Assembly (NCBI RefSeq): GCF_900103835.1
Contig: NZ_FNID01000015.1
Location: 1 to 64,000, forward strand
DNA length: 64,000 nucleotides
Direction of reading: 5' to 3'
DNA from: Acetanaerobacterium elongatum
Lineage (GTDB): Bacteria; Bacillota; Clostridia; Oscillospirales; Ruminococcaceae
The notes beneath the pieces are model-generated. The model was not told where the DNA came from, searched no databases, and saw nothing but the letters and a program-made list of their open reading frames with translations. A program made the position numbers and the translations under genes. Below, piece by piece: positions 13,097 through 14,232 of this stretch; positions within the stretch are counted from its first letter, which is position 1, and each line of letters opens with the position of its first letter.

Positions 13097-13369
13097 TTAT
13101 CTCTGGCTCGAGAAGCAATCGCTGCAGTAAACAGGACGATCGTTTCTGGGCTGGAAGGGAACCTTGCAGGTTTTCCCGCAGGAAGCGCATACAGCGTCGA
13201 ACATTTCGCGCTGGGGCCTTCCGTTATTCTTACGGGCATCGCGGCAGCTCTTGCAGCGCTGAGGCTCATTGGTAAAGCCTTTCTCCTCGTAAAAATCCTG
13301 CTCGCTTGCTGTGAACACGAACTCGTTGCCACAGTCTTTACATACCAGTGTTTTGTCTTGATGGTTCAA
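13097..13369 (-). CDS. Double zinc-ribbon protein
   Basis: The product has 90 residues. Two CxxC zinc modules are visible: CKDCGNEF...RCKSCR in the N-terminal half (the 'probable zinc-ribbon' type with FTASEQDFYEEKGFTNEP between) and CASCGKTCKVPFQPRNDRPVYCSDC with the C-terminal SSQR tail. Proteins of this two-module architecture are frequent in Clostridia and usually small and cytoplasmic. Nucleic-acid or protein binding is likely but unproven. The start is TTG at 13369 with AGAGGT at correct spacing. It has its own terminator. Confidence 0.82.
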   Translation of the reverse strand: MNHQDKTLVCKDCGNEFVFTASEQDFYEEKGFTNEPQRCKSCRDARKNNGRPQREMFDAVCASCGKTCKVPFQPRNDRPVYCSDCFSSQR

Positions 13370-13496
13370 TGGAAATACCTCTTTTTTTTATTATGACGGA
13401 TATACTCCGCATTAACACTTAGTATACAGCATAATAATCAAATTGTCAAATTTTTATATTCGGAAATTTCATCCTTTTTAGATTATTTACAATTGA

Positions 13497-13525
13497 AAGC
13501 AGCAAGGCCTAAGCTTTGCTGCTTT
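13497..13525. terminator. Hairpin after the proline-run gene
   Basis: A 10-bp perfect stem AAAGCAGCAA/TTGCTGCTTT closes an inner loop. It lies 20 bases past the stop of the proline-run gene on the minus strand, but the T tract is weak (TTTCAATT). It may terminate or protect the short mRNA. Confidence 0.45.
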
Positions 13526-13545: not shown

Positions 13546-13767
13546 TTATCGCGGTCTCCACGGTGGGGGAGGCGGGGGAGGAGGTGGCGGTCCCGGAGGC
13601 CACGGGGGTCTTGGAGGCGGGGGCGGGGGTGGAGGCCCGGGAGGAAACGGAGGACGCGGTGGACAATTGGGGCACTGCCACATCCATGGCCATCTGGGCC
13701 TTGGGTACCAGCGCCGACGTCGCCAGCGGATATCTGAGCACTCGCCATGGTCACGCATTTCAGGCAT
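13546..13767 (-). CDS. Proline-run microprotein (PPII-forming, unknown function)
   Basis: This 73-residue frame has an ideal ribosome binding site, AAGGAG, eight bases before the ATG at 13767. The N-terminal part is charged, then Trp/Arg-rich with a CPNC pair. The second half is almost only proline, with runs of 8 and 10 consecutive prolines broken by Gly, Arg and Trp, ending PPWRPR. All four proline codons are mixed within the runs, so the peptide, not the DNA repeat, seems to be conserved. Such runs would need EF-P to translate and would form a rigid polyproline II rod. No signal peptide is visible. The opposite strand reads as Gly-rich but has no ribosome binding site. I do not recognise a family. 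Confidence 0.6.
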   Translation of the reverse strand: MPEMRDHGECSDIRWRRRRWYPRPRWPWMWQCPNCPPRPPFPPGPPPPPPPPRPPWPPGPPPPPPPPPPWRPR

Positions 13768-13842
13768 ATTATCATCTCCTTTTGATGCATCATATGCCTA
13801 AAAAACCTAGATTGTTACAAAACTTGCCTGAGTGTTTGCTGT

Positions 13843-13995
13843 TTATAGCTCAGCCTTAAAATGCTCTGCAATCTGCATTAGTTCCCCCAGTGTTGAGATT
13901 TCAACACCCGATTCCAAAATTTTATTCTTAACCTGAATGGGCAGCGACTCGAAATACTCCCGAAAACCGGGGATATTCTCGTCATATACGGTCAT
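13843..13995 (-). CDS. Small acidic protein (50 residues)
   Basis: A short frame encodes MTVYDENIPGFREYFESLP, then QVKNKILESGVEISTLGEL and a final MQIAEHFKAEL. It starts at the ATG at 13995 with AAGGA about 12 bases upstream. It is predicted helical, acidic and cytoplasmic. It lies 33 bases downstream of the next small gene (14029-14232) on the same strand, and both have the regular helical look of small Clostridial proteins of unknown function. The coding call rests on composition, ribosome binding site and packing. Confidence 0.6.
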   Translation of the reverse strand: MTVYDENIPGFREYFESLPIQVKNKILESGVEISTLGELMQIAEHFKAEL

Positions 13996-14028: not shown

Positions 14029-14232
14029 CTAGTAAAAGGCCGATGGGTTTTGCGCAAGCTGCGCTATATACTGCTTCATCTCGCTTTTAGACCGTATTGT
14101 TTTTGTGCGATCAATAACCCTTTGCTGCTGCTCTTTGGTAAGGGAGCCAAAATGGTTCAGTGCCTCGGTGTTCTGTGCAAGTGCCATACCAAAGCCAAGC
14201 GGCAGGCCCCGTTTATCCTCTGCGTCTAACAT
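14029..14232 (-). CDS. Small conserved helical protein (67 residues)
   Basis: The product contains LPLGFGMALAQNTEALNHFG, then SLTKEQQQRVIDRTKTIRSK and EMKQYIAQLAQN. This pattern (GFGMALAQN..A...F..L....Q..V...A..I.SK.EM) is familiar from short Clostridial proteins of unknown function. It is all-helical and cytoplasmic. The ATG at 14232 is preceded by AAAGGA at a rather long 13 bases. It heads a run of five small minus-strand genes. About 230 bases upstream, to the divergent gene at 14465, contain no other frame I can support. Confidence 0.7.
   Translation of the reverse strand: MLDAEDKRGLPLGFGMALAQNTEALNHFGSLTKEQQQRVIDRTKTIRSKSEMKQYIAQLAQNPSAFY

Follow-up and report, generated by a model that had tools for sequence, protein, structure and literature searches.

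In the 64,000-nucleotide stretch of Acetanaerobacterium elongatum DNA analyzed here (the window), the proline-rich microprotein gene P0001 occupies positions 13546..13767 of the minus strand, exactly as first described. P0001 most likely encodes a genuine, lineage-specific protein of the spore surface, coat or exosporium, that the mother cell produces late in sporulation under the control of a sigma-K-type promoter. This assignment relies on the sequence in front of the gene and on the genes that share its promoter pattern elsewhere in the genome.

The open reading frame spans 73 codons and encodes MPEMRDHGECSDIRWRRRRWYPRPRWPWMWQCPNCPPRPPFPPGPPPPPPPPRPPWPPGPPPPPPPPPPWRPR, an 8.8 kDa protein rich in proline, arginine, and tryptophan with a pI of 11.5. 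Proline accounts for 34 of the 73 residues, alongside 12 Arg, 7 Trp, and 3 Cys, including a CPNC pair. The head of the protein (codons 1-35, 13663..13767) is Arg/Trp-rich with QCPNC at its end. The tail contains two imperfect copies of a 15-codon repeat, PPRPP[F/W]PPGPPPPPPPP: unit 1 at codons 36-50 (13618..13662, PPRPPFPPGPPPPPP) and unit 2 at codons 51-67 (13567..13617, PPRPPWPPGPPPPPPPP). It contains a run of eight prolines at codons 45-52 (13612..13635) and a run of ten at codons 60-69 (13561..13590), all of these segments being on the minus strand. Proline is encoded by all four codons (CCG 10, CCT 9, CCC 8, CCA 7). A Shine-Dalgarno sequence, AAGGAG, is read at 13776..13781 of the same strand with an 8-nt spacer to the ATG. 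The features reported in the first-pass annotation, namely the 73-codon frame, the ribosome binding site, the P8 and P10 runs, the CPNC pair, and the mixture of proline codons, are all present in the sequence.

The proline runs are far beyond chance. The longest CCN run elsewhere in the window is 4, and first-order Markov copies of the window contain runs of at most 5. In Markov copies with the composition of P0001 itself, a run of 10 was never seen in 2000 trials. Across the 2.9 Mb genome, CCN8 runs are found at three loci only. The GC content at the P0001 locus is 0.685, compared with 0.474 for the window.

A sigma-K-like promoter, AACA-N16-CATATGATG, is located at 13788..13816 of the minus strand, with the end of the -10 element 20 nt before the ATG of P0001. 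The sigma-K promoters of C. difficile have AC at -35 and a CATATAAT-like -10, and the sigma-K regulon of this species includes bclA1-3 and cotJB-type operons (PMC3789822). P0001 carries AC at -35 and CATANNAT at -10, and thus matches such promoters at the level of sequence. The leader from this element to P0001 would be only ∼13-15 nt, which counts against a spore role.

Pattern searches of the genome for AAC-N16/17-CATANNATG returned 12 matches, and the reversed control returned 17, so that the pattern as a whole shows no enrichment. Five of the 12 sites lie within 150 nt 5' of an ORF that starts behind a Shine-Dalgarno sequence on the correct strand, and the other seven have no such ORF. The spacing is the same at all five ORF-fronting sites, N17 after AAC, and the probability that five of nine N17 sites front ORFs by chance is ∼2e-4, assuming some 2700 genes. 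The ORFs behind the five sites are P0001, CotJA-CotJB, two BclA-like collagen genes, and a 42-aa Gly/Cys-rich peptide. The CotJA gene (PF11007, 2e-14) is followed by CotJB (PF12652, 1e-26) behind the shared pattern. One of the collagen proteins matches BclA_C at 4e-28, and the second matches it weakly at 3e-4. The 42-aa peptide, MCGNNGFGNNCCWWIIILVVLFCCCGDGFGCGNGCGNNGCGC (L273, G000:C23, 1338-1466, minus strand), has no Pfam match and is coat-like by composition only.

The B. subtilis-style canonical pattern, CATANNNTA, was rejected as a marker, as it failed to pick out spore genes here. A downstream ORF follows 24 of the 102 distinct CATANNNTA sites opened, and no recognizable coat gene is among them; the genes behind these sites include ones that we take, from their sequences, to be metG, hpf, asnB, typA, an aminotransferase gene, and arsR-like genes. 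The difference in coat-gene association, 4/4 for CATANNATG versus 0/24 for CATANNNTA, corresponds to a Fisher p of ∼5e-5, which is partly post hoc because the CATANNATG variant of the -10, with its ATG ending, was picked after P0001 and one BclA gene had been seen. Only three of the coat-type matches (cotJ, the second collagen gene, and the 42-aa peptide) played no part in selecting the variant. That coat genes here carry CATANNATG instead of the canonical CATANNNTA at -10 is odd and also counts against the spore reading; the final G of CATANNATG at the coat genes may be a preference of the species. The wider pattern mACm-N16-CATANNNTG adds one intergenic site, located before an Amidase_3/SH3_3 gene. 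Sigma-K-controlled mother-cell amidases are known in B. subtilis, for example CwlC. For the earlier proposal that P0001 is a ligand of WW/SH3-like folds, the analysis gave no evidence in either direction: the wider promoter set does include this SH3_3 amidase, but SH3 domains in bacteria are known to bind the cell wall.

The genome harbors further components of the sporulation machinery. SpoIVA is encoded with an E value of 4e-120. Within the window, YqfD scores above its curated cut-off, YqfC falls under the NCBIfam cut-off and over the Pfam one, and YlbJ falls under its curated cut-off. Together, the matches to SpoIVA, YqfD, CotJA/JB, and BclA_C indicate that the organism is an endospore-former.

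A second proline-run locus of the genome, on contig C73 (L214, G000:C73:13000-15400), contains an ORF from 1013 whose collagen-like product carries the C-terminal domain of BclA (PF18573, E 4e-28). Its N-terminus, IRRRPPPPPPCPPVPPCPPPPPPPPPPPPCPPCPPPSC, precedes GPT repeats and has an Arg-run and then two proline runs, of 6 and 12 residues, accompanied by CPxC pairs, the same layout as in P0001. The score of a local alignment between the two proteins, which is partly due to their run structure, was matched by only 8 of 1000 shuffles of P0001. P0001 resembles the BclA-type exosporium glycoproteins (BclA_C, PF18573) of the same genome in its promoter pattern and, for this one member, in an Arg-run and subsequent Pro-runs with CPxC pairs N-terminal to the collagen repeat. 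Unlike them, P0001 is a free-standing protein of 73 aa without collagen GXY repeats or a C-terminal globular domain, and neither the GXY repeat nor the BclA C-terminal domain was detected in it with Pfam or NCBIfam.

A reading that is given a small chance is that P0001 does not encode a protein and is a spurious frame within GC-rich sequence or opposite a poly-Gly stretch. The plus strand opposite P0001 does contain an 88-codon poly-Gly (GGN) frame, which starts at TTG without a Shine-Dalgarno sequence. The mixed codons had been taken in the first-pass annotation as evidence against simple slippage; the mixing of all four proline codons stands, but it cannot by itself decide between the strands, since poly-Gly with the same wobble positions is encoded on the other one. 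Over 17 aligned codons, the two copies of the tail repeat differ at 13 nucleotides, 11 of which are in third positions, and the F/W exchange is the only amino acid change. An arginine codon pair between the repeats, CGT/AGA, is synonymous in the minus frame only. This pattern lends modest support to a minus-strand protein, and the plus-strand poly-Gly ORF was ruled out on the basis of the absent Shine-Dalgarno sequence and a change between repeats that is non-synonymous where the minus frame is synonymous. Moreover, the minus-strand ORF has a clean Shine-Dalgarno sequence and a correctly placed promoter of the coat-gene type, and the proline tract sits in an intergenic gap instead of within another gene. 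Judged from these sequence features, P0001 is probably a real gene.

The homolog searches speak for a spurious frame. No homolog of P0001 was found in the 396 other genomes of the family (397 searched including its own), and no homolog of its head was found in the 393 other genomes of the order (394 searched including its own). There was no match in plasmids, viral contigs, or the PDB, and profile searches returned no Pfam or NCBIfam family. P0001 is an orphan among everything searched. Chance matches with E values of 0.001-0.02 were rejected, as those opened were in the wrong frame of other genes, antisense, or stop-bearing; one of them (L104), for instance, lies out of frame within a polynucleotide-phosphorylase-like gene. 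CCN8 runs occur in 147 of the 397 genomes of the family, and among the ∼70 CCN8 loci opened there, none encodes a short Pro/Trp/Arg protein started behind a Shine-Dalgarno sequence. Most of the runs with an assignable context lie antisense to glycine codons, for example those of the glycine loop of HflX and the G/F region of DnaJ, and the others belong to parts of larger proteins. In this family, HflX-like GTPases have eight or nine glycines in the loop, encoded by repetitive GGN codons (L144-L149, L155, L156, L232, L251, L253), and the antisense of this loop mimics polyproline ORFs. The first-pass annotation proposed that the lack of a homolog in close relatives would mark the ORF as spurious, and on that test taken singly P0001 would be discarded. 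The promoter evidence outweighs the absence of homologs because small spore-surface proteins are often lineage-specific.

It is likewise improbable that P0001 is a real but vegetative small protein, a Pro-rich ligand or spacer co-transcribed with its upstream neighbors. The neighbors are P0002 (50 aa, 13843..13995) and P0003 (67 aa, 14029..14232). All three genes share the minus strand, separated by 33 nt (P0003 to P0002) and 75 nt (P0002 to P0001), an arrangement that is consistent with co-transcription. However, the 75-nt gap contains the sigma-K-like element directly 5' of P0001, and the relatives of P0002 and P0003 elsewhere have no Pro-rich neighbor: a neighbor-anchored search found no such partner beside ∼100 P0003 loci and 29 P0002 loci. 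A functional link of either gene to P0001 would be hypothetical. P0002 and P0003 represent two conserved small-protein families of the taxon without a Pfam model, spread in the order and with a motif like YFxSLPxxVQ...ELxxxAExL. Members are often tandem paralogs, with four in a row at one locus (L190), and at another (L204) a P0002-like gene adjoins a P0003-like gene.

Directly after the P0001 stop, a 10-bp hairpin, AAAGCAGCAA...TTGCTGCTTT, is read from the sequence at 13496..13525 of the minus strand. It is possibly a terminator with a weak T tract, and it is absent from the list of the terminator scan. The downstream gene on the same strand, a zf_Tbcl zinc-finger gene (13097..13369), has its own promoter, TTGACA-N17-TATACT, at 13449-13421, beyond the P0001 stop and the hairpin. 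Judging from this element, the zf_Tbcl gene is a transcription unit separate from P0001.

The first-pass annotation suggested an EF-P sensor peptide. It is very improbable that P0001 acts as a leader peptide that senses EF-P or arrests ribosomes and thereby controls a gene downstream: it is a small Pro-containing ORF like the RAPP-like and MifM-type arrest leaders, and consecutive prolines stall ribosomes when EF-P is absent (PMC11990639), but no regulated gene follows it in the same transcript, the zf_Tbcl gene having its own -35/-10, the genome encodes EF-P, and a short stall motif would suffice where P0001 is an 8.8 kDa protein with two long proline runs in a repeated tail. The absence of an obvious gene to regulate, given the promoter-like site of the downstream gene, makes the leader-peptide role unlikely. 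Dependence on EF-P is distinct from a sensor function. Since EF-P is present, the proline runs should be translatable, and translation of P0001 is expected to depend on it.

Among known spore-surface proteins, CotJA/CotJB and other small mother-cell coat proteins resemble P0001 in size, promoter pattern, and spore-surface class, and share no sequence similarity with it. The nearest published parallel is the N-terminal linker of Ena1C from the endospore appendages of Bacillus. This linker contains conserved Pro and Cys with six consecutive prolines, and its authors propose that it is rigid and docks onto the spore coat (PMC12921279). In Ena1C, the proline linker is attached to a beta-sheet protein that forms rings; P0001 contains no domain of this type, and its proline runs comprise 8 and 10 residues. 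Small coat proteins restricted to one lineage are already known; P0001 would be a free-standing example with two long proline runs, and it has no relative in the searches.

As a late mother-cell product of a sigma-K-type promoter, P0001 would become part of the spore surface, either coat or exosporium. Its tail of two proline repeats would fold as a short, rigid polyproline-II rod, and the Arg/Trp-rich head with its CPNC pair may bind or disulfide-link the protein to other surface proteins. A plausible site is the layer in which the BclA-like collagen filaments are held by their Pro/Cys-rich N-termini. The earlier proposal of a real gene that acts as a rigid spacer gains indirect support from the coat-type promoter and from the BclA-like protein with proline runs, the geometry of the rod being a prediction. 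It is a doubtful further step that the free-standing polyproline rod anchors the collagen-like filaments by packing against, or disulfide-linking, the Pro/Cys-rich N-termini of the BclA-like proteins. If true, this anchoring scheme would differ from those of the BclA-BxpB and Ena1C types.

The analysis shows how promoter sharing can give an orphan low-complexity ORF a probable role where conservation tests would discard it. The proline- and cysteine-containing segments of P0001, of the BclA-like N-terminus in the same genome, and of the published Ena1C linker suggest that the combination of polyproline with cysteine is a structural solution used repeatedly at the spore surface. In B. subtilis, sporulation without EF-P falls to <2% of wild type, an effect ascribed mainly to Opp and DefB (PMC13055313). 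If such segments do recur at the spore surface here, the late stages of spore assembly in this lineage would require EF-P, in addition to the part it is known to play in B. subtilis sporulation.
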